Source: Portibacter marinus | GTDB taxonomy: Bacteria > Bacteroidota > Bacteroidia > Chitinophagales > Saprospiraceae | Direction: 5' to 3' | NCBI RefSeq assembly: GCF_021533195.1 | Contig: NZ_JAJNKB010000001.1 | Location: 620,001-684,000, forward strand | Length of the DNA: 64,000 nt | Shown: piece after piece, positions 9,883 to 48,145 of the stretch | Numbering within the stretch: the first letter of the stretch is position 1 | Layout of the letters: each line of letters opens with the position of its first letter | Notes under the pieces: generated by a model | Database searches by the model: none | What the model was told of the DNA's origin: nothing | What the model saw: only the letters and a program-made list of their open reading frames with translations | Made by a program: the position numbers and the translations under genes

Positions 9883-9913
9883 AATTAATAATTACTGTTG
9901 ATTTGATTTTTGC

Positions 9914-9955
9914 TTTATGGTTTATGGTTTATGGTTTATGGTTTATAGTTTATGG
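9914..9955. repeat. Six-unit 7-bp tandem repeat
   Basis: Six head-to-tail copies of TTTATGG (the fifth is TTTATAG). The array covers the last codons and stop of the CheB-CheR-PAS gene on the minus strand and much of the spacer to the PAS-only gene. It is a microsatellite that could change length by slippage. Confidence 0.9.
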
Positions 9956-12810
9956 AAGGATAAGAGGATTAATTTTAACTTATTTAAATCATCTTCAAAC
10001 AAGGGTTCGAGATGCAAGTTGAAGGTCTCGTGTTGGTCCTGTATATTAATTTCAACATTCTTAAGTATTTTTGATTTTTTACTTTTCTTTATGCCTTGAA
10101 TAGCATTCTCAATTTTTTCAATAGATGGCTCGTCGAAAATTCGAATAATATTCTCATTACTTTCCAATGATGCCAGATTATTTTCAAAAGCAGAATTAGA
10201 AAATATAATCCTTCCAGAATCTTTAATAAGTAAATAGGGCAAGACTTGCATGTCTAAATATTTCTTAAAGAACACACCTAATTCATTAGCCTCATTTTTT
10301 GCTTTCACGATTTTGTCCACATCAACAAGAGTTACCACTACACCGTCGACAATATCAATATCCTTAATATAAGGGATAACCTTCAAAATAAAACTGGTGC
10401 CACTATCGTCTAAGATCTCTTGTTCATACTCCTTTTCAGTTCGCATAACTTGCTTCGACACTTCCATAATATCAACCCCTACCAATTTTGAAGAAAATGT
10501 AGAAATAGGCCTATTAATATCGGTTTTCTCTATTTGAAATTGTTTTGTAATTGCAGGCGTGAACTTCCTAATTCTACAATCACTATCTAAAAAAATAGTG
10601 GCAATCTGAGTACTCGTAAGCAGATTGTTCATGTCGTTGTTTGAATTCGAAAGTTCCTTATTCTTATATTGCAATTCTTGATTTACAGTGTGCAGTTCCT
10701 CATTCAATGATTGAAGCTCTTCATTGGAGCTTTGTAATTCTTCATTACTGGCCAAAAGCTCTTGATTAGAGCTGTGAAGTTTTTCTGCTAAATCTTCTAA
10801 TTTGAGTTTTAATTCTTTTAACTCTTGTTTTTTTTCATCGATAACCTTCTCAGACCGAATCAATCTCTCAGATATATAGTTGGCTTCATCAATTTCAATA
10901 ATGATGCTTTTGCCCGAATCAATTTCATCAAAATTCTCATCCTTAAAAGTCATCCTAACGACTGGATCTTTGAGCTCTTTAAACTCAAATTTTTGAAAAG
11001 TAATATCGGTGCGTATTTTCTGATCTGATCTTTTAAAAATCACATCCTTGAATACCTGTTTAATCCCAGATTCAATTGCAAGCCTTACACCATCTCTAAT
11101 AAGAAGCGCCTGCGATGGTGGCAACATACTATGTAATGTTATCTCGCTGGTATTTCTGGGTAAACTAAATATATCCTGAAAAGAGCCTTTTAGATAGAGA
11201 ATCGTAAGATCCTCATCTAGAAAGACAGTTCTAGGAGAATATTCTTCTATTAAATTCTTAGAAAATGGTTCAACGACATCTTCTACAAGCTGATCAGTTG
11301 TAGCAGAGTAATTTTGACGTGAATGCAAGCTTCGATTTACAACCCTTTTCCAAGTTGATTTTCCTTTTATAATCTCCCTACTAGAACTCTTAAAATTTAC
11401 ATTTTGCTTAACAAAAATGTTTAGGTCGCTATCTTCAGGATGGAATACCGTATCGAATTCGCCTAAAGATTCACTTGGCCCTAAGACTAAAAATCGCTCA
11501 GATTTCAGTGAAAAATAAAATGTTTTGAGAATCTTTTGCTGTGTAACGGATTCAAGATAAATCAGGAAGTTTCTACAAGTGATCAAGTCCATATTGATAA
11601 ATGGTGGGTCAACTATTGCATCATGAATAGCAAATATCACCTTCTCCCTAAGTATGGGTTTGACATAAAAATTTCCTTCGTCCTCAATGAAATACTTATT
11701 CAAGTATTTCGCCGGGACATCTGAGGAAATACTTGAATTGTAGCATCCCACAGTGGCAAAATCAATTCCTTTACTATTGACATCTGAAGCGAAAATTTTA
11801 AAATCATTCTTAATGTTGTTCGCTTCAATAAACTCTAAAATTAAGATCGCAAGTGAATATGCTTCTTCTCCCGTAGAACACGCAACCACCCAAACTCTAC
11901 AAATTTCATCTGGTTGAAGGTTGTCAAAAATTTTCTTTAGAACGTCAGATGCAATCGTGTCGAAAACTTCTGAGTCTCTAAAAAACTTAGTGACATTGAT
12001 TAAAAATTCTCTAGCCAAAAGTTCTAGTTGGTCATCATTATCAAGCAAAAATTCATGATAGGCTTCAAGATTGTCCATTTCATGAAAAACTCTTTGCTTT
12101 TCAATTCTTCGGTACAATGTTGGCCTTTTGTAAGATTTAAAGGGAATGTCAGACTTTATACTAGCTAATTGTACAATTCTTTCATATTGTTCATCTTTGG
12201 TTTTCTCTCCACTAGTGTAATCTTGGGTATTTTGATCATCAAATTTACTTAACTCCAGTACGTTCTTAAGTTTTTTAGCTAGGTCTCCTGGAGCCATTTG
12301 TATATCTACAATTCCAAGATTTAAGAGGGCTTTTGGCATACCATCAAATTCACTAGTTTCAGGTGACTGGACCATTACTACTCCGTCATTCTCTTTTACG
12401 GTGCGTGCACCTCGACTTCCGTCAGTTCCAGAACCGGAAAGAATAATCGCGACTGCATTCTTTTTCAATCCACGACCAAGTGAATGAAAGAATTTATCAA
12501 TAGGCAAATTGAGTTTCTCAGTCTCGTCGCGATCATGTAATTTTAATAAGCCATATTGATAGGTTAGCGTTTTATTGGGAGGCATCAAATAAACATGATT
12601 TGGCTCAATAAATTGATCTTCCTGAATTTGATGTATTGGCATTGAAGTGTGGTTTCGAAGAAGATCTTCCATCACACTTTTATAATTAGGCGATAGATGT
12701 TGTATAATAACATATGCCGCTCCCAGATCAGGTTCTAAATGGTCGAGAAATTTTTTTAAAGCATCTACTCCACCTGCAGAAGCTCCAATACCAACTACCT
12801 TCATAGACAT
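9943..12810 (-). CDS. CheB-CheR fusion with PAS domains and coiled coil
   Basis: A 955-residue soluble hybrid. Residues 1-190 are a CheB methylesterase with the catalytic triad visible: Ser11 in GIGASAGG, His38 in IIQHLSP, and Asp130 in SGSGTDGS; there is no receiver domain. Residues about 205-480 form a CheR methyltransferase with the SAM-binding ACSTGEEAYS loop (near 309) and DLITCRNFLIYL. Next come a PAS-like domain (about 530-640), a coiled coil (650-735) with repeated NEELQSxNEEL units, and two PAS domains to the end. Such CheB/CheR hybrids usually feed a histidine kinase, which is missing here. No chemoreceptor gene is nearby, so the target glutamates are unknown. The PAS-only paralogue follows. 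Confidence 0.92.
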   Translation of the reverse strand: MSMKVVGIGASAGGVDALKKFLDHLEPDLGAAYVIIQHLSPNYKSVMEDLLRNHTSMPIHQIQEDQFIEPNHVYLMPPNKTLTYQYGLLKLHDRDETEKLNLPIDKFFHSLGRGLKKNAVAIILSGSGTDGSRGARTVKENDGVVMVQSPETSEFDGMPKALLNLGIVDIQMAPGDLAKKLKNVLELSKFDDQNTQDYTSGEKTKDEQYERIVQLASIKSDIPFKSYKRPTLYRRIEKQRVFHEMDNLEAYHEFLLDNDDQLELLAREFLINVTKFFRDSEVFDTIASDVLKKIFDNLQPDEICRVWVVACSTGEEAYSLAILILEFIEANNIKNDFKIFASDVNSKGIDFATVGCYNSSISSDVPAKYLNKYFIEDEGNFYVKPILREKVIFAIHDAIVDPPFINMDLITCRNFLIYLESVTQQKILKTFYFSLKSERFLVLGPSESLGEFDTVFHPEDSDLNIFVKQNVNFKSSSREIIKGKSTWKRVVNRSLHSRQNYSATTDQLVEDVVEPFSKNLIEEYSPRTVFLDEDLTILYLKGSFQDIFSLPRNTSEITLHSMLPPSQALLIRDGVRLAIESGIKQVFKDVIFKRSDQKIRTDITFQKFEFKELKDPVVRMTFKDENFDEIDSGKSIIIEIDEANYISERLIRSEKVIDEKKQELKELKLKLEDLAEKLHSSNQELLASNEELQSSNEELQSLNEELHTVNQELQYKNKELSNSNNDMNNLLTSTQIATIFLDSDCRIRKFTPAITKQFQIEKTDINRPISTFSSKLVGVDIMEVSKQVMRTEKEYEQEILDDSGTSFILKVIPYIKDIDIVDGVVVTLVDVDKIVKAKNEANELGVFFKKYLDMQVLPYLLIKDSGRIIFSNSAFENNLASLESNENIIRIFDEPSIEKIENAIQGIKKSKKSKILKNVEINIQDQHETFNLHLEPLFEDDLNKLKLILLSFHKL

Positions 12811-13005
12811 ACCAGTCTTTTATGCGATATAATTTGACTTAAATAAGGTGCTAACAAATAAAATGGAATAGTTTTGTAAAAGTAATATTTTATTTGAAAA
12901 TCTTATTAGAGCACTAGTCGTATTTTCAAAACTATCTTCATCATAGAATATTGCGTGGATTTTTAGGCTAGAAAATGAAAAGTACCGGAAAGTTATTAGA
13001 GAGTT

Positions 13006-13908
13006 ATGCTATCGATTTTAATTCCCACTTATAATTTTGTTGTAGTTGATCTAGTTCGACAGCTAAACAACCAGTGCCAGGAAGCAAATATCCCGTACGA
13101 GATTGTCTGTTATGATGATTTTTCAGTTGAGGAATTCAGGTTAAAAAATCGCAAACTCGACGCAGAATTCGGTGTTTCATACATCGAGCTCGGAGAGAAT
13201 AAAGGTAGATCCAAAATCAGAAACATGTTGGCGCAGAATGCAAGGTATGAGCAATTACTTTTCATAGATTGCGACAGCGAAATAGATAATGCCTTATTTA
13301 TTAGGAAGTACATTGAGTCCATTGAGTTAAGGAAGGTTATTGCTGGTGGTAGGAAATATGCACAGGAGAAACCATCTGAAAAATCCAAAATGCTCCATTG
13401 GTACTACGGCACTCGTAGAGAATCACTTTCGGTTAAAAAAAGAAGTGAAAATCCATATAGATATTTCCACTCTAATAACTTTATGATTTCACGAGATTTA
13501 ATGATGAAGTTTCCTTTTGAGGAAAAGATTTCCACTTATGGTTATGAAGATTCTCTGTTTGCAGCAACCTTAGAAAATGAGGGAATAAACATTAAGCACA
13601 TTGAAAATCCCCTCATTCATAAAGGTGTGGAGGATACTCAAGACTTTCTGCGCAAGTCTAAACTTGCTGCTGAAAACCTGGCAATTCTCTATCATTCAGA
13701 AGCATTAAATAATACCCGGATGATAGCCTTCCACGAAAACATAAAAAAAATTGGTTTTAACAGCCTCTTAAAAATAATCATAAGAAGTAGAAAAGATCAA
13801 ATGCTCAAGAATCTTCATTCTGAAAATCCGAATCTCTTCTACTTCGATTTGTTTCGCTATGATGTATTTATCAATAAACTCAGTTTCTTAAAAGCATCAT
13901 CTTCTTAG
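13006..13908 (+). CDS. Family 2 glycosyltransferase
   Basis: A 300-residue GT-A enzyme starting directly with the nucleotide-sugar fold (MLSILIPTYNF). The metal-binding DxD-type motif is FIDCDSEID near residue 87, and the acceptor-side GYEDSLFA motif near 180 resembles the galactosyltransferase-type C-terminal domain. It probably adds a sugar from a nucleotide donor to a surface polysaccharide or glycan in the cytoplasm; donor and acceptor are unknown. There is no glycan cluster around it. The 3' end overlaps the convergent T9SS protein gene by 29 bases. Confidence 0.88.
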   Translation: MLSILIPTYNFVVVDLVRQLNNQCQEANIPYEIVCYDDFSVEEFRLKNRKLDAEFGVSYIELGENKGRSKIRNMLAQNARYEQLLFIDCDSEIDNALFIRKYIESIELRKVIAGGRKYAQEKPSEKSKMLHWYYGTRRESLSVKKRSENPYRYFHSNNFMISRDLMMKFPFEEKISTYGYEDSLFAATLENEGINIKHIENPLIHKGVEDTQDFLRKSKLAAENLAILYHSEALNNTRMIAFHENIKKIGFNSLLKIIIRSRKDQMLKNLHSENPNLFYFDLFRYDVFINKLSFLKASSS

Positions 13909-16900
13909 CAAATACTCCAAGTGATGTACTTACTTCGTAAATGTACATACCTCCTATCACTGGCAGTTGGCGATTCTCGATTTCCACTTTGTTAAGTCCC
14001 GAGCTCAGATCTAATGTCCTCTGGTGCACCACCTTGCCTGAAAGATCCATAATTCGCAAATAAGCTTTTTCTGGGTCAGGAACCGAAATATCGAAAATGG
14101 TCATATTGCTCCAGGGATTGGGAACATTTTGACCAATGGTTACTACAGGTTCCCTTTCTTCATTTCTGATCTCTATGCTAAGGGTCTCTCCATTTTCTCG
14201 AGCCACCTCTGCACTTTCAGTATTAAAACTTAATTGCTCTAACACTTTGTCAGACAAGAATCCATCGAACTCCAATGTGAAAATGGTTTGACCTTCTTCA
14301 AATGACTCGTCAAATGCATCCGTAAATAGAATTCTTAATTTTCCTTGATGGTCCAAATGATGATTTTCAACCAAGTTCGAAGTATGATTTTCAATCTGCA
14401 GTAATTTAAGGTCCATATTATTCAGGCTCAATTCAGTGAATAAACCAGCAAATTGAAGAACTTGATCAGCTTTGATGATTAACTTATTTTCTTTAACCTC
14501 AACGGCTAAAAGTGCAGCTTCTCGTAATCTTACACTTTCATTAACATCACCTAATTTAATACCAATAAAATTGGTTTCAGGTTGGCCACTCAAATAGTAG
14601 ATATCGTGGGTCTCAGGGATAGGAGTCGCCCAAGGATCACTTGGATCCAAAAATATGTGGTTATCAGGAACAAATGACCAGGATTTTCCTCCTGGAAACT
14701 CATTGGTAATTCCAAGCAGCAATTTTCTAATCGTAATGATATCAGATGCAGACACATTGGCTGATCGGTTGACATCAGCTGCTAAAAGCTTATAAGGTGA
14801 TTCAAATGTTTCTATACCTAGAATATGCCGTTGGATAAGCACCAGGTCAGTAGTTGAAACTCCATTAGTCGCACGATCTTGCTTGGTGGGCCTCACTTTA
14901 TAATGTCCTCCGGTGACCATTTCAGGAAAAGAGAAAAATCCATTCTCATCCGTCATGGTTTGTAGACCGGCCCCTTCTAATACCACATTGACATCCTTCA
15001 CATAATCGACCTGATTGCCAAAAACCACCCCTTTTACAAGTCCCATACCGCAAACCATGATCGACGTAGTATCACTCACTGTAAAAGAAGCAACACAAAA
15101 ATCAAAGAGTCCGTCTTCATCTATGGCATACAGTTCTAATTGTTGGTTGCCAAGACCATCGCAGTCAAAATAACGTAAGGTATCGTTGATGTCTTCTGAA
15201 AATGCAACATTTACTGCCTTTCCACAAAATGCTTTGCTGTCAGCATCCAGCATTGAGGCTGTAACCCTGGCGACAAAAACTGCATCATCATCATCGTTAT
15301 CCGAAGTATCTATACTTTCTATAAAGAATTCCTGACCCAGGAGGCAGATAGGTTGAGGAGTCACACAGTTATTAATCGTTATAATATACGAACAATCATC
15401 TGTATTACCACAGCCATCATCCAATGTCCAGGTGATCTGATTGTCTCCTGGCGGTAAAAATCCATTGAAGTTATTTCCATTTCCTATAGAATCAGGTCTT
15501 TCGTCAGCATAATCAATGATGTACGTCCATTCTAGACTATCTATCGAAGTACAATTGTCTACACCTTCAGCGCTAAGCATCACCTGAACAGAGCCACAAT
15601 CAGAATCATAAGAGCATATGGTTGAATCCATACAGGCTGATGTAATCACAGGAGCCTCATTATCATTGACCGCTATTCTTTGTGTATCAATGTAAGTCGC
15701 AAAAGTAGAACCATCTGTTCTATTACACCAGTCCGCTACATACCAGACTCTTTCCAATGTAAAACAGCCCTCAGAAAAATAAGCAGTGGTATCATCTTCG
15801 TGCGTATAAGCTACCATTGAATTAAAACTTTCATCATATTGAGGGAATGAACCCAGACTATCCGGATCAAGATTTGTATTGCATTCAGTGATCGTTGTAT
15901 CATTTGGAAATGTAATGTCTTCTCTGGTAAAAACTCTCTGTGCAATGACTGTAATTTGCTGCGAAATGGTATCTGCAGTTCCAAAGTCGTCGGATACAAT
16001 GAAAGTTCTTATGATTGAACCAGTTTGGCACATATTGATGTCTGCTTGTTTTAGCTCAATGATAGTATTTACACTACAATTATCCATGACGACCGCATTG
16101 ACATTATTGCCACTAAAAGCTAAAGAATCTGCATCGATGATTATTTCCATAGGGAAGTCCACATTTTGTTCTACAAATCCGAATGGAGAGAGGTCTGAGG
16201 TATCGACAGGAAAGTCGTTGCTTACAGTAATGTCCGGTAAGTCCGTTAAAAAAGAAGGTTGGACATTATCTATAACCTGTATGGAAGTCATGCAACTATT
16301 TGCATTTCCTGCATCATCAGTCACCTGCAGTACGATCATCAAATCGTTCCCAATGTCAGCACAGCAAAGCGTTACCGATGGTCCAAATAGGGTATCCATA
16401 TCTACTCCACAGGCTGACTCCATTCTGCGAATTTCCAACAAAGCCTCTGAACAAGCATCCAAACTGCCATTATCAAAAGCCTCTGCTGTCAGTATGGCCA
16501 TACCGTTGCCATCCAAACTAAAGCTCATACCTGATTCACAAATAGCAACCGGCTCAATATTATCTTTTACTATAACGGTGTAACTTTCCATAGTTGTGTT
16601 TCCACATCGGTCACTCAACATATATTGTATGACGTTTTCACCCAGCGGTAATTCTATCTCAATTGAATTGGTATCGAATTCAACTCCTCCGGGATAGAAA
16701 ATATCTAGTTGAAGATCTGATTGACAATTATCATTCATCTCCGGTTCCGGGACGGTATAGCTTGTTTCGCAACTGGAAGAAGCGCTTGAAATGGTCACAT
16801 CTTCCGGAACGATTAATACGGGACCAGTCGTGTCGATAACAGTGATGGATTGTTTGAATGTAGCCATACCATCTTCAGCGCAATACCAGTTAACCACTGT

Positions 16901-37896: not shown

Positions 37897-38481
37897 ATGG
37901 AAACGACTTTTAAAACGATTTATAAAGATGTGATTAATAAGCTAGATTCTTATCTACCTTCACATCTCACCTACCACAGTACAGAACACACCAAATATGT
38001 AGTGAAACTATCTGAATACATTGGTAATAAAGTAGGACTAAATGAACGAGAGTTATTTCTGGTAAAGGTAGCAGCACTTTATCACGATCTAGGATTTATT
38101 ATAGGCCCTGAAGACCACGAAGAAAAAAGCTGTACGCTAGCTATAAAAGATCTTCCTGATTACAATATTGACCAGGAAGAAATCGAAAAAATTTGCGGCA
38201 TGATCATGGCCACAAAAATACCACAGGTTCCTACGAATATTTATGAAAAGGTGCTGGCAGATGCCGATCTTGAATATCTAAGTACGGATTCTTTTGAACG
38301 AATCAGTAACCTGCTTTACAAAGAATTGCAGCACTTTAATGACGATCTCACCCTCGATAAATGGAATGAAATACAAATTGCATTTATAGCAAATCATGAA
38401 TACCATACACGATATTGCAAACAAAACAGAGAAAATAAAAAGCAGGAAAACTTGCAGAATTTAATTAATCTGTCTAAGTAA
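37897..38481 (+). CDS. HD-domain phosphohydrolase
   Basis: A 194-residue protein that is almost entirely one HD domain. Metal-binding residues are visible in order: His in YHSTEHTKYV, the HD pair in ALYHDLGF, a His/Glu in DHEEKSC, and Asp in LADADLEYL. It is closely similar to the N-terminal 190 residues of the HD-YitT fusion at 46685-48145. The YHxxEHT entry resembles the HNxxHxxxV motif of cyclic nucleotide phosphodiesterases, but many HD enzymes act on other nucleotides. Substrate unknown. It stands two bases from the convergent S53 protease gene. Confidence 0.82.
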   Translation: METTFKTIYKDVINKLDSYLPSHLTYHSTEHTKYVVKLSEYIGNKVGLNERELFLVKVAALYHDLGFIIGPEDHEEKSCTLAIKDLPDYNIDQEEIEKICGMIMATKIPQVPTNIYEKVLADADLEYLSTDSFERISNLLYKELQHFNDDLTLDKWNEIQIAFIANHEYHTRYCKQNRENKKQENLQNLINLSK

Positions 38482-38482
38482 A

Positions 38483-40117
38483 CTAAGCCTTAGCATTTTC
38501 TAATCTTTTCATGACCGATTTCACTGCGGCCAACAAGACAGTTCCGTTAGGACTGCCCAGACCGGTACAGGGGTCCCAACCACTACCTGCTTTATACGCA
38601 CCATTCCCACCGTCATCTATTTCATTGAATGCCACTTTCACATCCTTATGATAGAAAATAGGGTTAGCAAAACCCATATTTCGAAATCCTTTCTCATTCA
38701 ATGCTTGGTTTATTCTGGCAATTAAAGCAGCCCACAGAGGCGTCGCTGCGCTCGTACCCATTGCAATCTGTTGCGAATCTCCTACGTAAACCAATATGCC
38801 CGGAAAGGTTGAAGCATTGGCAGCGACATCGGGAATACCTCTTTTGTGACCATGATGTAAATGAGGAGGCATGTGACTTTTTTGATAGACTGGTAAATCC
38901 CATATTGTTGAAAAACCACCACCAGACTTAAAATGTACATCCTGTCCCATCAATTGCTGCTTTTCCTCCCAGCTATGTTCGTCGACTATGACACTGCCCT
39001 GAATATGAACCTGACTGCCTCCGACCGCTAATACCAGTGGATGTGAGGCTGGTAGCTGGATATTCTTTTCTTGCGTGGTTACGCCCAATACACCGGAAGA
39101 ACCCAGGTCTCCTGAAGAAGTGATCACCGTAACATTTAAGGATGCTGCTTCGCGTAAAACCTGATCAAGAGTCAACTTATCATCTTCCGAAAACTCCTTT
39201 TCCAAACTTCCCCAACTCATCGAAACAATGGATGGTCGAAACTTACGGTCATGAATGGCTTTTTTAATAGCCTTGGCGATTTCAGCTCGTTTATTCCTGG
39301 CAAAATACACAACGATCCTTGCTCCTGGGGCCAGCGATGCAGCAATCTGTACATCCATATAAACCTCGTAGTCATATTGAATATTTTTCCCTGGCTCGTT
39401 CTTACCTCCGTTAACGCTTCTCCACGTAATTTTTGGCATAGAAATCTTCATATCCTTGAAATATTTCTCTAGAACACTTTTCTTGTAACCCCCGCCTAAG
39501 GAGATGATGGCTATGGTCTGCCCTGTTCCGTCCTGTTGGTTAGGGAAATTATACAATTTTTCAAAAGTGCTGGGGTTGACCGCTTTGCCTGCCAACATTG
39601 CACCTGGAATCCCTATTTCCTTCGGAAATATTTTCTTCGCCTTGACAGGTAGCGTATTGAGGCCGGAAATGCTTTCGACAATTGCCCCTAATTCTGCTGG
39701 TAGTTTGATATCATTCTGATAAAAATAGTATTGCTTACCATCAAGTACGGTAGATTTTATATCAATTTTTAAAGCTTTCTCTATGTCAAAAATCTTTCCC
39801 CTAACCACAGCCCATCGCTCTATGGCATTTTTAATTTTAATTTGAAGCTTGTTGGGTTTTAGAAAATCTTCTAATATCCTGAATGCATCTGCGGCTGGCA
39901 AATGGTGCTTATTATACTTTCTTCTTGAAATCAGTGCATTAAATTTTTGCTCTACATCTTGAATCAACTCCAGCGGCTTTAGCAATGAACTGCTTTCAGG
40001 TTTAAAAAAGATGGTAAAGTCTATGGTCTTCTGACCATCAGCTTTGAACCTCTTTTTTAAAAATTCATTTGCTGGAATGACTTCATTTTTGAAAACTTTG
40101 GTTTTAGCGGTTGTCAT
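38483..40117 (-). CDS. Kumamolisin-like S53 (sedolisin) peptidase
   Basis: A 544-residue serine-carboxyl peptidase. Residues about 1-165 are the pro-kumamolisin activation domain, and 180-540 the catalytic domain. The catalytic set is complete: Glu251 and Asp255 in YDYEVYMDV, Asp337 (oxyanion) in SSGDLGSSG, and Ser456 in MGTSAATP. The calcium site EIDDGGNGAYKAGSGWDP follows. No signal peptide is present, which is unusual, since characterised family members are mostly exported acid proteases. It is divergent from the tandem unknown pair at 40220-42231 across about 100 bases. A processing role in that locus is inference. Confidence 0.92.
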   Translation of the reverse strand: MTTAKTKVFKNEVIPANEFLKKRFKADGQKTIDFTIFFKPESSSLLKPLELIQDVEQKFNALISRRKYNKHHLPAADAFRILEDFLKPNKLQIKIKNAIERWAVVRGKIFDIEKALKIDIKSTVLDGKQYYFYQNDIKLPAELGAIVESISGLNTLPVKAKKIFPKEIGIPGAMLAGKAVNPSTFEKLYNFPNQQDGTGQTIAIISLGGGYKKSVLEKYFKDMKISMPKITWRSVNGGKNEPGKNIQYDYEVYMDVQIAASLAPGARIVVYFARNKRAEIAKAIKKAIHDRKFRPSIVSMSWGSLEKEFSEDDKLTLDQVLREAASLNVTVITSSGDLGSSGVLGVTTQEKNIQLPASHPLVLAVGGSQVHIQGSVIVDEHSWEEKQQLMGQDVHFKSGGGFSTIWDLPVYQKSHMPPHLHHGHKRGIPDVAANASTFPGILVYVGDSQQIAMGTSAATPLWAALIARINQALNEKGFRNMGFANPIFYHKDVKVAFNEIDDGGNGAYKAGSGWDPCTGLGSPNGTVLLAAVKSVMKRLENAKA

Positions 40118-40219
40118 CGGGGTACATGTTTAAAGGTGGAGAAAAGGATGTTGAATCTTCATCTATTTTTTACTAAAGTTAGGAATTTGATTTGTATTTT
40201 CAATTTAATTAAAACTCAG

Positions 40220-41263
40220 ATGCCCAAACCGAAAAACCCTAATCTTAATAGTCCGGAAAGTCTCTTTTTATTATACGATGACATCCGTACATATCTAAAA
40301 GATCCCCTCCTATCTCCAACTTACGATGAAAAATTGGAGAAACTATATCACCAAATTCCCTTTTCCGATCTAGTCAATCTGGAGATTAGACTGGATGGAA
40401 ACCAACAGGTGGATGTCAATGTCATCTATAGAGAGGCCGATATAAAACCTCTCTTGGATTGGTATTCTAAACAAATGGATAATGATGGTATCAATCTCAT
40501 CAGACTTGTTCAAGAGTGGAAGGACCATGGAAGTTTTATTCATAATGTGATGAATAATATTTGGCTCATGTATGATTTCGGAATAGAGCATAAGCTCCCG
40601 GTCACGCCCTGGATTATACTTACATTGGCGACTAAAGGATTTCCAGCTGATTTAATCAGAGACCTTTACGAGAAAACTGCTCGGCAGCTGACGCATGAAA
40701 TAGGTCATGAGGAGTGGGACAGCTTTGAGAATTTACTATTGAAAATGCCAGAACATCTAAGTATACCCGCCGTAGGTCTGCTTAGTAGAGGTCATTTAAA
40801 ATTACGCTTCGGATTACATGCGTTCCATTCTATGGAAGAGGTAATCGAAACGCTCTCTACGCTGGGCTGGGAGGGAAAGTCTGATTTTTTAAAATTCCAT
40901 TATACATGGCCTGTCGATAATGCTTATTATACTGATATCGGTCTGACTATCGACAATGGCCAACTCGTCAAAAATATAGGTCTAGAGTGTTTTCTTGATA
41001 AAACAGATAATTACAGACATACTGAACTGTATCTTGATTTTTTGATCGATCAAGGTTGGTGCCTACCAGGGTATATGAAGGCTTTGCTTGACTTCATAGG
41101 AGAACATAAGGTATCTGCGGATTTGCTTCCTATGACTAAAAAACACCTTGTCAATAATGGTTCAGTTGTAGTAGAAAGATGGGTTTCTCACTTTAAGATG
41201 GTATATAAAGCAGACGGCCCTCCTGCTGCTAAGGCTTATCTGATTTATAACCTGAAATTTTAA
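40220..41263 (+). CDS. Unknown protein, first member of a tandem paralogous pair
   Basis: I start at the ATG at 40220 (MPKPKNPN); the longer frame from 40136 adds 28 residues unlike the rest of the protein and lies close to the S53 gene. The 347-residue soluble protein shares five blocks with the next gene: a motif around NNIWLMYDF, PWIILTLA, LSTLGWEGKSDFLK, IGLECFLDKTDNYRHTELYL, and a C-terminal WVSHFKMVYKADG ending KAYLIY. I recognise no family. The conserved C-terminal Trp-x-x-His-x-Lys motif suggests a binding or active site. It could be an enzyme or a scaffold acting with the protease or the VioB-like protein. Confidence 0.72.
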   Translation: MPKPKNPNLNSPESLFLLYDDIRTYLKDPLLSPTYDEKLEKLYHQIPFSDLVNLEIRLDGNQQVDVNVIYREADIKPLLDWYSKQMDNDGINLIRLVQEWKDHGSFIHNVMNNIWLMYDFGIEHKLPVTPWIILTLATKGFPADLIRDLYEKTARQLTHEIGHEEWDSFENLLLKMPEHLSIPAVGLLSRGHLKLRFGLHAFHSMEEVIETLSTLGWEGKSDFLKFHYTWPVDNAYYTDIGLTIDNGQLVKNIGLECFLDKTDNYRHTELYLDFLIDQGWCLPGYMKALLDFIGEHKVSADLLPMTKKHLVNNGSVVVERWVSHFKMVYKADGPPAAKAYLIYNLKF

Positions 41264-41265
41264 CG

Positions 41266-42231
41266 ATGGATAAGCATTTGTCCATATTAAGACCCTTACT
41301 AGATGATTTACCGGATCATATTTTTCCTAAAATATATCAATCTAAAATTGCGGAGATTGCGTCTTTGCTTCCTCCATTAGAGCATGGGATCATTGAATTT
41401 ACCGAGCGCCCGTATTCTCAAAGGGTAGACCTCATGATTTGTTGGTTTTATTCTGAGGCTAAGTCCAAAGGTTTTGTGCCAATGCTAGATCCATTTCCTG
41501 AATTCAAGGGCCTCGTGGAGTTCCTAGCTCATTGGAAAGATGAAGCGAAGTTTTTGAGCTCGATGATAGAAAATATTTACCTTGTTTTTGACCTTGTGGA
41601 CATAGAGGCACCATTTGTTGAACCTTGGATGTATTTAGCATTTAAGAGATTGTATTTGCCGCCTGATATTATTCTCGACCTCTTTATCAAAAGTGCTTCC
41701 TTTCTTCCACATCAAATCCCTGGACCATCTATACCCATTCTATTGAACATTCTTGAGAGAACCAGAGACCCATACTGGGTTTTTGGTTTTGGTCTTTTGC
41801 ATCAAAGGGGTGAGCAACTTTTACGTATAGGCATTGCCGACTTTCAAAACATAGAGTCCATTGCCCATTTTCTAGCAGAATGCGACTGGCAAGGTAATTC
41901 CGACAAGCTAAAAGCACACCTTATCTTCATTGAGTCTTTTACCAATAACTTTGTCTTGTCTCTTAAAATTTCAGATCATATTGAAACAGAAATTGGCATC
42001 GAATGTATTCTTTCAAAAATGAATAATTACAGCGCAGCAAGGATTCTGATTGATTATTTGGTAAAGCATAAGTTCTTTAACCACCATAGGGCTCAGGCCA
42101 TCTTAAAGATATTGATTCCGGATCAATTAGTCCCTAAAGTGCCATTTAGATGGTTAAACCACATTAAGTTTAATTTTGATGGAGAAAAGATGGTAGCTGT
42201 TAAACCATATCTATATTATGAGAAACACTAA
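41266..42231 (+). CDS. Unknown protein, second member of the tandem paralogous pair
   Basis: A 321-residue soluble protein starting two bases after its paralogue. The shared blocks are visible (ENIYLVFDL, PWMYLAF, LAECDWQGNSDKLK, IGIECILSKMNNY, and C-terminal RWLNHIKFNFDG with KPYLYY), but overall identity is low, so the duplication is old and the two have probably specialised. It lacks about 25 N-terminal residues relative to the first copy. Its stop overlaps that of the convergent VioB-like gene by four bases. Function unknown; the pair may act as a heterodimer. Confidence 0.72.
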   Translation: MDKHLSILRPLLDDLPDHIFPKIYQSKIAEIASLLPPLEHGIIEFTERPYSQRVDLMICWFYSEAKSKGFVPMLDPFPEFKGLVEFLAHWKDEAKFLSSMIENIYLVFDLVDIEAPFVEPWMYLAFKRLYLPPDIILDLFIKSASFLPHQIPGPSIPILLNILERTRDPYWVFGFGLLHQRGEQLLRIGIADFQNIESIAHFLAECDWQGNSDKLKAHLIFIESFTNNFVLSLKISDHIETEIGIECILSKMNNYSAARILIDYLVKHKFFNHHRAQAILKILIPDQLVPKVPFRWLNHIKFNFDGEKMVAVKPYLYYEKH

Positions 42232-44210
42232 TTTGAGGATTTCAATTTTTGATCTAAATATTTGAACAGAAGTTTCCGTTTGCCATCTGGCATGTCCCTG
42301 GAAGAAGGCATGTAGAGGTATTTTCCCCAGGCTTCTCTTACCATGATTTTTTTGAGAAAAGAATGAATCTTTTCAAAATGTTGGCTATTAAAAGGTGTGA
42401 TGATTCCTGACGCTGGATAGATCAGATCATAATCTTTTAATAATTCTTCATAGATGATTTCAAATGTAAGTTCTTCTCCCCTTTCAACCATTTGATAGTC
42501 ACAAAGTACTCTTACATTTATATAGGAAGAAGTGTGGAGCATATAGTTGATTAAATCTATCGGTATGACATTGTTTTCGAATGGAAAAAATACATAAAAG
42601 AAATTTCCATATCCCCTGTTAGCCAATCGGAAGGCAGATTGACCTGTAATCGAAATAGAGTCCAATATCTCTACGTCCATGCCTTTACTGTAACTTTTTG
42701 GCTGCAAGATGTGAACCGATATATCCGCTGGCTTCTCTGCTGGGCGTCCTCGATCAATTACTCTCAGTATGCACTTTTCAGGCGTACCGTCATTATTGAG
42801 GAAGTAATCACTATTATCCTTTTCTTCTCGATATAAGCCTGTTTGATCACTGATCAATCTGACGGGTAATTCCTTTAAAACTTGTGTATCCTTCCCTTTT
42901 AATGTTATGACAATAGAAATATCAAATAGCGCTTCAAGATCGACATCAGCGGGAATTACAAACTCGTAAATACCACCCTTCGACATGAAAGATTCCATTG
43001 ACAAACAAGATGATTCAATCTCAATATGTTTAGATGGGAGATGGGGTTCAAAATAGTTGAAAACAATACGGCATTCATCGAATGCAAAGGGTTTATAATT
43101 TCCATTCACCAACTGTAAAGGCCATGCACCGATAAAATCCAACATGGTTTTCCGTTGAGCTTTGTCGATTTTGACATACGTCGCACCAAACTTTAATTTT
43201 TCCTTGAATGCTTTTCCGGGGACGAGTAGTCGATCCATACTAGCAGATCGCAATTCATTCTTTAACAGCGGATAGAAAGTACCCAGTATGCGTGTGCAAG
43301 CTGGATTAGAACGAGGACCCAGTTTTTCATAATCAGGTTGCTGATTTTCCTCTAACCCATATAAATCATATCGTACACCGATACCGAGTAGGTCTTCGGG
43401 ACGATCAACATTCTCCTCAAAAAAGCTCTGTATATCGCCTTTGGCGCCTGGACTTTCAAATAAGATAGAGGTATAAAAAGTACCCGAACTGGCATAAATT
43501 TCAGATGAATCAACCATTCGGCTGGCATTGATCTGTCTTAAAGCCATCTTGTAACAGTTGTGCTTAAGCAATGTCGTTCCATTCTTTGATACCACTAAAT
43601 GATCAGAAAAAACCTGGGTGAAAATGGACATGGCAGGAGAAACATCAATCATCACGGCATTTCGTTTTCCGAGATCATTCACAAAATAAACTTCTGACCC
43701 TAGCAATTCGTGGACCATTGATTGCTCAATAATTTCATCATCGTGCCTAAAAGTTTTTTCTTCAGTTTCAATACTATGGATCAAGACTTGTTCGAAAGAG
43801 AAATTCATAGTCCCATAGTAATTCCAATATCCCGGATGCAATCCTTGCAACAATTTTCCCTCTTTCTCCGTCTTAATAACCTGATAAAGAATGTGGAAAT
43901 CAACATCTTCCCGATCCTCTCCCAGGGGTATGGTCATCCACCTTTTGAACTTCTCTGGAGTATTGATAGCACTGATAGAAATGTAAGTGTCACCTTCAGA
44001 ATCATACTGAATGATTTTTTCAAACTCTCTGATTACCTTAAGGGTATCTTCTTCAATGATGTGGTGGATATAAATCCTTGGTGGAAGGACCACCCGAGCA
44101 GTGTTGGGTTCATAGCAAACCAGAGGGTAGTGATAATTATTGTTTCCAGTAGCAGGATCTATAACTGTTTCTCCGGAAAAATGTAGTCTGGGGTAATGAA
44201 ATTGACTCAT
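42228..44210 (-). CDS. VioB N-terminal-like protein lacking the ferritin-like domain
   Basis: A 660-residue protein. Its start [20 protein letters not shown] and its end [11 protein letters not shown] to [21 protein letters not shown] resemble, from memory, the first part of VioB (FPRIHFRG near the start; YYMPSTREL and FLKYL before the second half). VioB makes the iminophenylpyruvate/indole dimer in violacein synthesis with a ferritin-like di-iron domain in its C-terminal half; that half is absent here. The biochemical role of the N-terminal part is not established. Its ATG overlaps the stop of the adenylate cyclase gene by four bases, so the two are coupled. Similarity should be checked by profile search. 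Confidence 0.6.
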
Positions 44211-46177
44211 ACCAAATCTACCTCTCGACGCTCTATGGGTTCATTGGCAAAATACATGTTTACTTCACCCATATTCTTGACTGGGAATTTGCCACGGAAA
44301 GTGCAATTAAATTTACCCTTAATAGCATAGTAGGTCGATTCTGAAATATTGATTCTACCTGGCTCACCGCCTGATTCCATCCTACTCGCTAAATTCACAG
44401 CATCTCCCCAAATATCGAATTGAAATTTCTTTTTGCCTACCACTCCTGCAGTCACAGCTCCGGTATGAATGCCTGCTCTCAGATTGATCCCTTCTACAGC
44501 CACGTCTATTTTTTCCCTTGCCCACTTTTGCGTAATTTCTATCATTTCGTAAGCTGCAAGGGCCGCATCCAGTGGATGACTTTCATTTTTGACAGGCATG
44601 CCTCCCACACACATGTAAGCATCACCAATAGTCTTTATCTTTTCCAGCCTATATTTAGATGTTACATCATCAAATTTGGAAAAAAGATAATCTAATCCTT
44701 CTACCAATTGGTCAGGATTCAATTCCTTTACCATGCTAGAAAATTTGGTGATATCTAAAAATAAGATCGTCACATTATCATAATAGCGAGGTGTTGCTGT
44801 ACCCGTACTCTTTAATTCATCTGCCACTTCCTTAGGCAAAATGTTCTGAAGCAAAGATTCAATTTCCTGGGTTTGCTTAGATATTTCCAGCGTTCTTTCC
44901 CTCACTTTATCTTCCAATTCCCTATTTACTTTATCCTGAAGATCTGCATTGACCTGTAAATGTCTGATGATTCGGAGTTGTTTTTCTTTATTTTCTTTCA
45001 TTAAGTAATTAATGGTATTGGCCAATGCCAAGGCGAAGAGGAGCATTTCAATTGTAGCGCCAACGAATAAGGCATGATTAGAAAAGAACTCCATTTCGCG
45101 AAAAGTAGGATGTACTTGACCTAGCATTGCAGCAATCCCGAAGATGAACCAGAAGATGTGGGCCGTGATTACATATATCGCACCTGGAAATTCATCTCGA
45201 TAACTCTTGATCCCTACTGTAAAGACAATGATCATGAACGGTATGACCGAAACTACCATGAGATTAACCGCTAAATCGAATGAGAAGGGAAGTAAGCAAA
45301 GAACCAATACTAAAAAGATGCTGAGGTAATCTATAGATTTCCCCCATTTCGGATAACGTTCTGAAACTCTATAGAAATCTTTGACAAAGTAAAGCACGCA
45401 TAAGGTTAGAATCACAGGTTGGACACTTTTAAATACAATTCTTATTTGCGGTGCATAGTCGAAGTTAGGAAACATTTCATTGAAAATGCCGGATACCTCT
45501 AGAACAGTGAGAAAAAGCACTACTAGTGATGCCAGGTAAAATCGGTAGGCTGTGTTTTTTGTAGAAATAGAGATAAAGAGATTGTACAGGAGCATCACCA
45601 GAAAAATACCGACATACATAAATGCTATCGCATACGAGATATTCTTACGCTTAAGTATTTTGACTTTCTCTGAAATGGTAAAACCCAGATTGGTCGGTTT
45701 AATAGATCCATTAAATCTCGGACTTAACTTGACTACAATCTCTCTTGAGGCATTGGCATCAACTGGAACTTCTAGCAGATTATTAATGCCTAATGGCAAG
45801 TCTATCATATAATGTGGGAGTAAATGACCAGTCCTTTTGACCACCATTAGTCCATCTTCCTTATAGGCCAATTCTATTAAACCCCAGTTTTTAAACTCTA
45901 AAATATAAGACTCATCAGAAGTGCTTTTATTAACCAATTCGTATTTTATCCAATAAGCATCATAGTCCAGATTGATTTCCTCAAGGCTGTTTCCATCTAG
46001 CATCTCGATCTCATTCGAAAAAAAACTCTGAAATTCTAAAACACCTTCTGGATCTAAAACGTAATGAGGAGTTGTGATTCTCTCACTATAACTTTCATTG
46101 GACAGCGTAATGCTCTGTGAATAAGCAAGACTTGTAGATATGAAGGTTAAAAGGGTGATTAAACTTGTTAGTTTCAT
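44207..46177 (-). CDS. 7TM-DISM class III adenylate cyclase
   Basis: A 656-residue membrane protein. A signal peptide (about 1-19) is followed by a DISMED2-like extracellular sensory domain (about 25-155), seven membrane segments (about 180-385), a coiled coil (about 395-450) and a class III cyclase domain (about 465-640). Metal-binding Asp is in [10 protein letters not shown] and GDAYMCVGG; the Lys of [11 protein letters not shown] and the Asp of [15 protein letters not shown] are the residues that select adenine, and the Arg of SRME is the transition-state residue. So cAMP is the expected product. DISM domains usually bind carbohydrates or other ligands. The stop overlaps the VioB-like start. 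Confidence 0.9.
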
Positions 46178-46284
46178 TTTGTTTTATGGGCATTTCTCTA
46201 AAGCCTATCTTTTAATACAAGGAAAATAGTAATTTTTTACTAATTTGAGCCTGATAGCTTATTATTAATACAACATTCAATATA

Positions 46285-46539
46285 ATGTCAACTAACCAAA
46301 CCCTAGGTCAAGCGCTTGAAAAAGAAGGAAGCGAAGATCAAAAATCAATTTGTACTGAAGCAGCCTTAAATTTAACCAAAAGTGAATGTGTAGACATTCT
46401 TGAAAATCACGACGTCGGATTGCGACGTGCAGACAAAGAATCGCTCATGCGACTAGTGCGATTTAGAGTGAATAAAGTGATGCCGATACTTCCTTGGAAA
46501 GATGTAAAGATTGGCGAAGAAGTGAATCCTAATTGGTAA
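46285..46539 (+). CDS. Small protein of unknown function
   Basis: An 84-residue acidic protein with mainly helical character: ALEKEGSEDQKSICTEAALN, then SECVDILENHDVGLRRADKESLMRLVRFRVNK, ending KDVKIGEEVNPNW. It has two Cys residues and no signal peptide or membrane segment. It is a single-gene unit with its own strong hairpin terminator. No family is recognised. Confidence 0.55.
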   Translation: MSTNQTLGQALEKEGSEDQKSICTEAALNLTKSECVDILENHDVGLRRADKESLMRLVRFRVNKVMPILPWKDVKIGEEVNPNW

Positions 46540-46684: not shown

Positions 46685-48145
46685 ATGGATTTTAATTCAC
46701 TATATGATTTTGTGATATCGAAATTAGACAGCGAATTGCCGGACCATATTACCTATCATAATACGGAGCACACTAAATACGTCCTTGAATCTGCCATTCT
46801 GATTGCCAGGAAAGAGGGAGTAGGTGGAAATGATTTAGTTTTACTCAAAACCGCAGCACTTCTTCACGATGTAGGTTTCACTATTAGTCATAAAGAGCAT
46901 GAGGCCTTATCCTGTGATATTGCCCAGAAAATTCTGCCGGATTACAACTATTTACCGGATCAGATCGATCATATATGCGAAATGATCATGGCAACCAAAT
47001 TACCACAGAAGCCTAGGGATAAACTCGCTAAAATATTATGTGATGCCGACCTTTACTACTTAGGTGGAAATAGCTATGACGCTTACGCCAGTAGATTGTA
47101 CAATGAGTTCAAGGCCAATCAAATTGTAAAAAATGAAAAGGAATGGTTGGCCTTGCAAATTGATTTTTTAAAATCTCATCAATTTTTCACTCAGACCGCC
47201 AGAAACAATAGAAATAAAAATAAAAGAAAAACATTAAAAGTACTTCGCAAAGAAGCAAAAGGCCAGATAAAGGGAAACCAGATCCAGTCTATCAAAGACA
47301 ACATCATTGACTTCTTTTTGATGGTTATCGGTGTTTCGATCACGGCTTTTGCACTTCAAGGTTTTTTGGTTCCCAATAAATTTTTCGACGGTGGAATATC
47401 CGGAATTTCTCTGCTGATCTCACAAATTTTCGATATTGACCTTAGTATCATCATCGTTTTACTCAATCTACCTTTGATTATCATCAGCAACTATACGGTA
47501 GGTAGAAAATTTGCCATCAGAACCTTTATTTCCATCGCACTTCTATCTGTCGCACTTTGGTATATGCCTGATATCACTGTCACCAATGACAAGCTCTTAA
47601 TAGCCGTATTTGGAGGTATCTTTTTAGGGCTGGGAATCGGCCTTGCGATGAGAGGAGGAACTGCACTGGATGGAATAGATGTGTTGGCCTTATACACTTT
47701 TAAAAAGACTTCCTTTAGTATGACAGAAATCATTCTAGCCCTCAATATTGTCATTTTTGCCATTGCGGGTTTGAAGTTTGGAATCGAAAGTGCATTTTAC
47801 TCCATATTGACCTATTTCGCAGCCACGATCAGCCTGGGCTATGTAGTAGATGGTCTTCAGGCACAAACTGGAGTGACCATTATTTCCAATCAAAGTGAAG
47901 AGATAAAGTACAAGCTGGTCAACGAATTAGAGCGTGGAATTACTGTTTACAAGGGTGAAAGAGGCTTTTTACCCGGTCAGTACGAAGTCAGTTCGGAATG
48001 TGATATCATTTTTACAGTGATAAGGCGGTTAGAAATGAGAAAATTAAAAATACTGGTATACAGTGTTGATCCCAATGCATTTGTATTTGCCAGCACCATT
48101 AAGGAAGCGACCGGCGGTGTTCTAAGAAAGAAAGCAGGTTATTAA
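46685..48145 (+). CDS. HD domain fused to a YitT-family membrane protein
   Basis: A 486-residue fusion. Residues about 1-190 are an HD phosphohydrolase with all metal ligands (YHNTEHTKYV, LLHDVGF, HKEHEALSC, CDADLYYL), closely related to the stand-alone protein at 37897-38481. A basic linker (RNNRNKNKRKTLKVLRKEAK) leads to about six membrane segments (about 215-390) typical of YitT/DUF161 (VPNKFFDGGISGISLLI, GLGIGLAMRGGTALDGIDV) and the C-terminal DUF2179 domain (about 400-486, VYKGERGFLPGQYE). YitT proteins alone are common; the HD fusion is unusual. An enzyme releasing a nucleotide product next to a transporter or membrane sensor is one possible reading. Confidence 0.88.
   Translation: MDFNSLYDFVISKLDSELPDHITYHNTEHTKYVLESAILIARKEGVGGNDLVLLKTAALLHDVGFTISHKEHEALSCDIAQKILPDYNYLPDQIDHICEMIMATKLPQKPRDKLAKILCDADLYYLGGNSYDAYASRLYNEFKANQIVKNEKEWLALQIDFLKSHQFFTQTARNNRNKNKRKTLKVLRKEAKGQIKGNQIQSIKDNIIDFFLMVIGVSITAFALQGFLVPNKFFDGGISGISLLISQIFDIDLSIIIVLLNLPLIIISNYTVGRKFAIRTFISIALLSVALWYMPDITVTNDKLLIAVFGGIFLGLGIGLAMRGGTALDGIDVLALYTFKKTSFSMTEIILALNIVIFAIAGLKFGIESAFYSILTYFAATISLGYVVDGLQAQTGVTIISNQSEEIKYKLVNELERGITVYKGERGFLPGQYEVSSECDIIFTVIRRLEMRKLKILVYSVDPNAFVFASTIKEATGGVLRKKAGY

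Follow-up and report, generated by a model that had tools for sequence, protein, structure and literature searches.

Why should a protein resembling one half of the biosynthetic enzyme VioB be encoded directly behind a membrane receptor with an adenylate cyclase output? This question is raised by a stretch of 64,000 nucleotides from Portibacter marinus (NCBI RefSeq assembly GCF_021533195.1, contig NZ_JAJNKB010000001.1, positions 620,001 to 684,000 of the forward strand; hereafter the window, whose own numbering is used below). A preliminary description of this DNA had noticed the pair. We found that the pair is part of a six-gene cassette spanning positions 38483-46539, which has the appearance of a hitherto undescribed system that produces a modified peptide and senses it. 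That it is a peptide-signal system of the type of ribosomally synthesized and post-translationally modified peptides (RiPPs) has, in our judgment, about an even chance of being correct.

Judged by profile comparisons, the 660-residue protein of the pair, hereafter VioB-N, is homologous to the N-terminal half of VioB. Taken alone, it matched the NCBIfam model of VioB (TIGR04492) at 1e-8, with a score of 33.5 bits that lies far below the curated cut-off of 1250 bits, and 15 of the 16 members of its family alignment matched the same model singly (best 3.9e-15). In addition, hhalign matched the family alignment to a RebD/VioB-like protein from Nocardiopsis across 473 columns (98.8%, E 1.3e-16). 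The preliminary description had recognised VioB from motifs at the two ends of the protein; profile and alignment agree on this homology, and both the start motif, MSxFxxPRLHFxG, and the end motif, YMPxSRxL, are present in the Nocardiopsis protein. Pfam gave no match for the 660-residue protein, sequence searches of the PDB with VioB-N returned one chance match at 0.74 in one search and none in another, and two weak VioB-like matches were seen among plasmids. The ferritin-like domain PF12902 is absent from the protein by Pfam and had no match in the 5.19-Mb genome. Thus, the earlier statement that the ferritin half is missing stands for the window, but this half was not simply lost in the family, as in relatives an adjacent gene of its own encodes it. 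In an excerpt of PMC9705886, VioB is described as dimerising an indole-pyruvate imine and as having heme b, and its N-terminal half as being without a known structure as of 2021; PF12902 genes are placed near lodA/lodB in fungi in an excerpt of PMC4417212.

The two genes of the pair lie on the minus strand at the coordinates reported earlier (Table 1), and direct reading confirmed the ATGA that had been described as a translational overlap. The membrane protein is indeed a DISM adenylate cyclase, with matches above the Pfam cut-offs to Guanylate_cyc (2e-53, 181.2 bits) and 7TMR-DISM_7TM (5e-27, 95.5 bits), while the extracellular domain 7TMR-DISMED2 scored 21.9 bits, marginally below its cut-off of 22. 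In an alignment judged by eye, the metal, Lys/Asp and Asn/Arg positions of its catalytic domain look intact and of the adenylate type.

The pairing was followed through overlapping genome samples that include the window's own or centre genome, in which VioB-N was detected in 2 of 100, 9 of 395, 11 of 298, 4 of 395, 19 of 180 and 2 of 38 genomes. Neighbourhoods were taken for 18 + 14 places, and 14 of the 19 positive genomes of the 180-genome sample were inspected at the locus level. Gene labels on the resulting maps come from phmmer similarity to chosen queries, with Pfam run on part of the genes; L and G numbers are our designations, L082 being the same contig as L004, and L039 and L040 the same contigs as L003 and L002. 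Between sensor and VioB-N the gaps are -1, -1, +2, +8, +10 and +14 bp in six relatives and 72, 91 and 121 bp in three more, so that in seven loci the two genes overlap or lie no more than 14 bp apart. Only four DISM proteins exceed the Pfam cut-off in the 5.19-Mb genome and the link is kept across deep divergence; the pairing therefore exceeds chance. Among the aligned VioB-N-linked cyclases, that of L041 (7490-9478) reads WGATVN where the others read WGD[AT]VN, and its activity may differ.

In a tree of 33 VioB-N proteins, built without L038 (fused, 911 aa), L044 (partial), L048 (weak), L018 (full-length RebD-like) and L082, the 17 sensor-linked proteins form one clade (99/98). The sensor is the direct upstream same-strand neighbour of VioB-N in 10 of these 17 loci, X (see below) lies between the two in six, and two genes separate them in L042. 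The pairing is kept at VioB-N identities to the window as low as 22%. The output of the sensor is less constant, a histidine kinase being found in 7 of the 17 loci (by Pfam in L031, L033 and L078; by similarity in L076, L077, L079 and L080); the DISM-cyclase and DISM-kinase labels each change twice on the tree, L033 standing among the long branches. The input half of the window's receptor finds its counterparts across outputs, with 146 bits to the L076 kinase, 129 to the L004 cyclase, 36 to the L033 kinase and 22 to L042, and it had no match at E 10 to the other DISM proteins of the genome (L050-L053), one of which is touched by the input halves of L039 and L040 at 14 and 9 bits. The input half of the receptor is thus co-inherited with VioB-N while the output swaps. 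Since the input halves match each other and not the genome's other DISM proteins, it is the receiver, and not cyclic AMP (cAMP), that stays with VioB-N. The preliminary description had tied VioB-N to cAMP production, which does not cover the kinase outputs. The pairing, whose conservation it had suggested surveying, is kept in other Bacteroidota, with the restriction that the partner is not always a cyclase (the kinases, and a GAF-cyclase with FIST in L034 and L035).

None of the 16 VioB-N proteins outside the clade had an adjacent DISM or cyclase gene mapped by similarity to the chosen queries. Two-component-like genes lie within some kb of VioB-N in L037 and L084 (by eye) and in L017 (by annotation), and a weak kinase match (E 1e-7) lies about 4 kb from VioB-N in L087.

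The cassette itself recurs. Ten loci from 5 genera in 3 families (group A: the window, L031, L032, L039, L040 and L076-L080) all combine a small protein ending in tryptophan, a DISM sensor, VioB-N, a protein that we call X and a peptidase. The peptidase is S53-like in the window, L032, L039 and L040, and C39-like in six loci (by Pfam in L031 and L078, by similarity in the remaining four). The sensors have a cyclase output in four loci (by Pfam in the window; by similarity and alignment in L032, L039 and L040) and a histidine-kinase output in the other six. Two copies of X are present in each of the window, L039 and L040, and X is intact in L079 and L080.

The small protein of group A, which has 84 residues in the window, had neither a Pfam nor an NCBIfam match. 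Its counterpart ends in Trp in all ten loci, the endings being NPNW, DPNW, DHNW, GGTW and GGGTW, although similarity between subgroups falls to E 0.001-0.003. As a background in 21 loci, 17 of 698 open reading frames (ORFs) of 60-140 aa end in W, five members of the family included, and 1 of 240 ORFs of at least 200 aa does so. The ratio of non-synonymous to synonymous substitution rates (dN/dS) was 0.04, 0.06, 0.10, 0.10, 0.11 and 0.30 in six of ten pairs, the remaining four being saturated at synonymous sites. The small protein is under purifying selection, and conservation covers much of its 80-90 residues, beyond the tail.

X is modelled by structure prediction as a ten-stranded alpha-beta-beta-alpha barrel (the ABBA or DMATS fold), and the two paralogues of the window, neither of which had a Pfam or NCBIfam family match, have invariant strand residues in common. 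On this model, kinship of X with the crocagin peptide-binding proteins was dropped; it had been considered because they also form a homologous pair beside a C-terminal Trp. A profile of X found it in 4 of 395 genomes of the class, namely the three with group A loci in that sample and G223, which is the only positive genome of the 10 sampled in its family; of 180 genomes in the family of the window, 3 were positive. The X of G223 (L095) carries a fused squalene-hopene-cyclase-like domain and follows a P450, in a cluster that also holds Asn_synthase, PqqD and Transglut_core3, a set known from lasso-peptide clusters. One of the three positive genomes in the window's family, G047, has three copies of X and neither a group A locus nor a VioB-N match. 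Two of these copies, L102 (1267-10063) and L103 (1-8688, truncated where the contig stops), belong to runs of genes that include DUF4135 (LanM-type) dehydratases and NHLP-like precursors, recognised by an NHase_alpha match and a GG motif; in 3 of 3 cases the last residue of the precursor is Trp. The contig of the third copy (L101) is 4 kb long and shows no precursor. Pfam further identified in L102 a JmjC protein, a cNMP-binding protein and an FAD oxidase fused to a squalene-cyclase-like domain. From their gene content, the L102 and L103 clusters may make prenylated or terpene-decorated lanthipeptides. X thus accompanies canonical RiPP machinery and, though not always, Trp tails in two unrelated precursor families, and the terpene-type domains beside it suit prenyl chemistry.

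Table 1. Features of the cassette in the window (positions in window numbering).
Feature	Position	Strand	Basis or arrangement
S53-type (sedolisin/kumamolisin-like) peptidase with pro-domain	38483..40117	-	Pfam and motifs
X375, paralogue of X321	40136..41263	+	Homology to X321; longest ORF, true start possibly downstream
X321, ABBA-fold (DMATS-like) protein by prediction	41266..42231	+	Runs towards VioB-N, with a 4-bp overlap of the two ends
VioB-N, stand-alone homologue of the VioB N-terminal half, 660 aa	42228..44210	-	TIGR04492, family members, hhalign
ATGA, cyclase stop overlapping VioB-N start	44207..44210	-	Sequence read directly
DISM 7TM receptor with class III adenylate cyclase output, 656 aa	44207..46177	-	Pfam
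Small protein ending ...NPNW, candidate precursor, 84 aa	46285..46539	+	Divergent from cyclase gene, 107 bp apart

The peptidase of the window matched Pfam Pro-kuma_activ (4e-9) and Peptidase_S8 (2e-10) and has the motifs YEVYMD, SSGD and GTS, as expected of the S53 type. Among the seven genes scanned at 37.9-48.1 kb, Pfam and NCBIfam found no named RiPP enzyme, and the models of the violacein pathway were unmatched, the TIGR04492 match of VioB-N excepted. A compositional island was considered and rejected, the guanine-plus-cytosine content showing no anomaly (0.37-0.41 across 30-54 kb). The cassette is flanked by homologous HD-domain proteins at 37897-38481 and 46685-48145, the latter fused to a YitT/DUF2179 membrane protein, and L039 has separate HD and YitT genes near its cassette as well.

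The common thread of these genes appears to be tryptophan: the imine that VioB dimerises is an indole-pyruvate one, and PalQ, ComX, the ammosamide-type pathways and crocagin all use Trp peptides. We infer the following route, including every chemical step, the export and the role of the product as ligand of the receptor. The 84-aa protein would be the precursor, with its final Trp as the core. Both ABBA-fold proteins would bind the Trp tail, and at least one of them would prenylate its indole. The stand-alone VioB half might process the Trp-derived group further or hold it, as VioB does with the indole-pyruvate imine. The C-terminal product would then be freed by the S53 peptidase and sensed outside the cell by the DISM receptor, which would answer with cAMP here and with a phosphorelay signal in relatives.

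VioB-N also occurs in other settings. Group B (L004, L005 and L041) combines a DISM cyclase, VioB-N, a separate ferritin-like gene (PF12902 at 8.2e-46, 4.5e-49 and 4e-52, respectively), an FAD_binding_4 ('BBE-type') oxidase and a small SpoIIAA-like protein. An ORF of 55-65 aa with two or three [GA]WY repeats, which differ at synonymous codon positions, directly precedes the BBE-type or YcaO gene in each group B locus. In L041, a YcaO-TfuA pair (14577-16632), whose best NCBIfam matches are proteins of McrA-glycine thioamidation, below cut-offs, directly follows such a multicore AWY precursor-like ORF. The scan for ORFs with at least two WY gave some matches at other loci, none with two [GA]WY, and in L076-L089 its sole match was the L004 copy. 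A candidate short precursor thus lies beside modifying enzymes in 10 of 10 group A loci (C-terminal Trp) and 3 of 3 group B loci (WY repeats). L005 (by Pfam) and L004 (by the similarity map) additionally have a flavoprotein of the Trp_halogenase family. We did not retain the label of tryptophan halogenase, as PF04820 is strong in L005 and NCBIfam points only weakly to CmlS, LodB, QhpG and others; a PqqD-like domain on this flavoprotein was also dropped (E 0.21 in L004, none in L005). Adjoining the L004 cluster (9903-13810), two ORFs contain segments (YRFGFNG...) that we take to be RHS-repeat-like.

Group C (L033, L034, L035 and L042) has a lipoprotein-like protein of about 460-490 aa, VioB-N and a sensor, which is a DISM kinase in L033, a GAF-cyclase with FIST in L034 (by Pfam) and L035 (by similarity), and in L042 a DISM protein that is truncated at the edge of the contig and lies two genes away. 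The maps show no sensor of this kind for group D (L036, L037, L043, L045, L081 and the partial L044). Distant VioB-N proteins lie beside a separate ferritin-like gene in L046, L047 and L083-L089, and beside or near one in L017; L038 encodes a fused protein of 911 aa. A VTT membrane protein adjoins this common arrangement in L046 and L047 and is found at several other VioB-N loci. Also, a lipoprotein-like family of about 460-530 aa accompanies VioB-N in L033-L037, L042, L043, L045, L048 and L081, the member in L033 having a weak Kelch match.

Several observations weigh against the route proposed above. The ABBA fold of X, itself a model, shows no function: X had no sequence match to a named prenyltransferase family (8 members scanned, E up to 10), and the sole match of its profile to PDB chains up to E 10 was a chance one at 0.5. 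None of the candidate precursors of L095 ends in Trp, so X can occur apart from such a tail. In groups B and C, which have the sensor, X is absent and a Trp-tailed protein was not found either; VioB-N and its receptor thus do not need X. The structure model of VioB-N, made from five sequences, failed, with a predicted local distance difference test (pLDDT) score of 44, and the role given to VioB-N is therefore a guess. The S53 protein has no obvious signal peptide as judged by eye, no conserved exporter was apparent in the locus maps, although no search aimed at exporters was made, and the small protein has no recognisable leader or cleavage site except GGTW/GGGTW in the histidine-kinase group. 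The small protein of L032 is placed with its counterparts on a single weak match (E 0.0014, to the L031 protein) and on position. L048, outside the tree, has a kinase-AAA-GAF-cyclase protein beside its weak VioB-N relative. Finally, the pairing arose once, so the 17 sensor-linked loci are not independent.

This single origin would fit a merely historical neighbourhood, in which VioB-N and the cyclase are co-transcribed without sharing a pathway. We regard this as very improbable, since the pair has persisted through rearrangements and output swaps down to 22% identity of VioB-N, with an overlap or near-contact in seven loci and with co-inheritance of the receptor's input half. A more serious, if still doubtful, alternative is that the product of the cassette is a Trp-modified peptide or small molecule and that the DISM receptor senses an environmental cue switching production on, not the product. 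Outputs as varied as cyclase, histidine kinase and GAF-cyclase with FIST are what local regulators would show, and the sensor of L034, which is a GAF-cyclase lacking DISM and has a FIST protein next to it, would sense something else. Nevertheless, in the DISM-linked loci the half that stays with VioB-N is the input and not the output, which favours a cluster-specific ligand.

The small protein could also be a regulator, chaperone or inhibitor of the S53 or C39 peptidase, its Trp tail serving for docking or degradation. Its conservation well beyond the tail would fit such a function, as would the position of its gene upstream of the C39-like peptidase gene, on the same strand, in six loci. Against this, similar small proteins accompany two unrelated peptidase types, and X has, in its model, a fold known for Trp modification, so that we find this explanation improbable.

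If the peptide-signal reading is right, it would show the N-terminal half of VioB at work in the absence of the ferritin half, add a family of ABBA fold associated with peptides ending in Trp, and offer a testable ligand for DISM receptors, few of whose signals are known to our knowledge. The swap between kinase and cyclase behind related receptors would also be a natural experiment in signalling. In titles and abstract openings among the literature matches listed, mostly from non-subscription journals, VioB-N with a DISM sensor, X or these precursors were undescribed.

Among known systems, the iminophenyl-pyruvate dimer or chromopyrrolate synthases VioB, RebD and StaD have the same N-terminal half as the window's protein, with the start and YMPxSRxL motifs, and differ by their ferritin-like half. 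With the DMATS/ABBA indole prenyltransferases (6-DMATS, CymD, PriB and FgaPT2, and PagF and PatF of RiPPs), the likeness of X lies in its predicted fold and not in sequence family. C-terminal Trp peptides are described as scaffolds in ammosamide-type pathways (PMC11117183, PMC9850906) and in crocagin (PMC10070186), in the excerpts available. The crocagin precursor CgnA ends in Ile-Tyr-Trp and goes with the homologous pair CgnB/CgnE of similar size, which resembles our cassette, whereas CgnB and CgnE are said there to resemble M29 aminopeptidases (excerpt of PMC10070186). PalQ of Paenibacillus prenylates the C-terminal Trp of the NHLP precursor PalX, is of the isoprene-synthase type, and has no receptor described in the excerpt of PMC10853753 that reports it; the same excerpt presents ComX as a Trp-prenylated quorum-sensing RiPP and ComQ as an enzyme of the isoprene-synthase type whose target is an internal Trp. 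A conserved C-terminal Trp beside a putative Trp prenyltransferase also brings the cassette close to PalX-PalQ, and the NHLP-like precursors of L102 and L103 resemble PalX.

A further parallel is ComQ-ComX-ComP of Bacillus, in which a prenylated-Trp pheromone is read by the membrane kinase ComP. The window likewise has a candidate Trp precursor, a Trp-prenyltransferase-like protein and a membrane receptor, and a kinase receptor as in ComQXP is present in six loci (f88). The genes scanned at 37.9-48.1 kb did not match the isoprene-synthase-type family of ComQ, X modelling as an ABBA barrel; the receptor is a DISM protein with cyclase output, and VioB-N and the peptidase are extra. It is possible, though we propose it only tentatively, that the cassette is an independently evolved Gram-negative counterpart of ComQXP, in which a prenylated, VioB-N-modified C-terminal Trp peptide would be the pheromone of its own co-inherited DISM receptor, the output module would have been exchanged between adenylate cyclase and histidine kinase, and cell density would be read as cAMP in the organism of the window.

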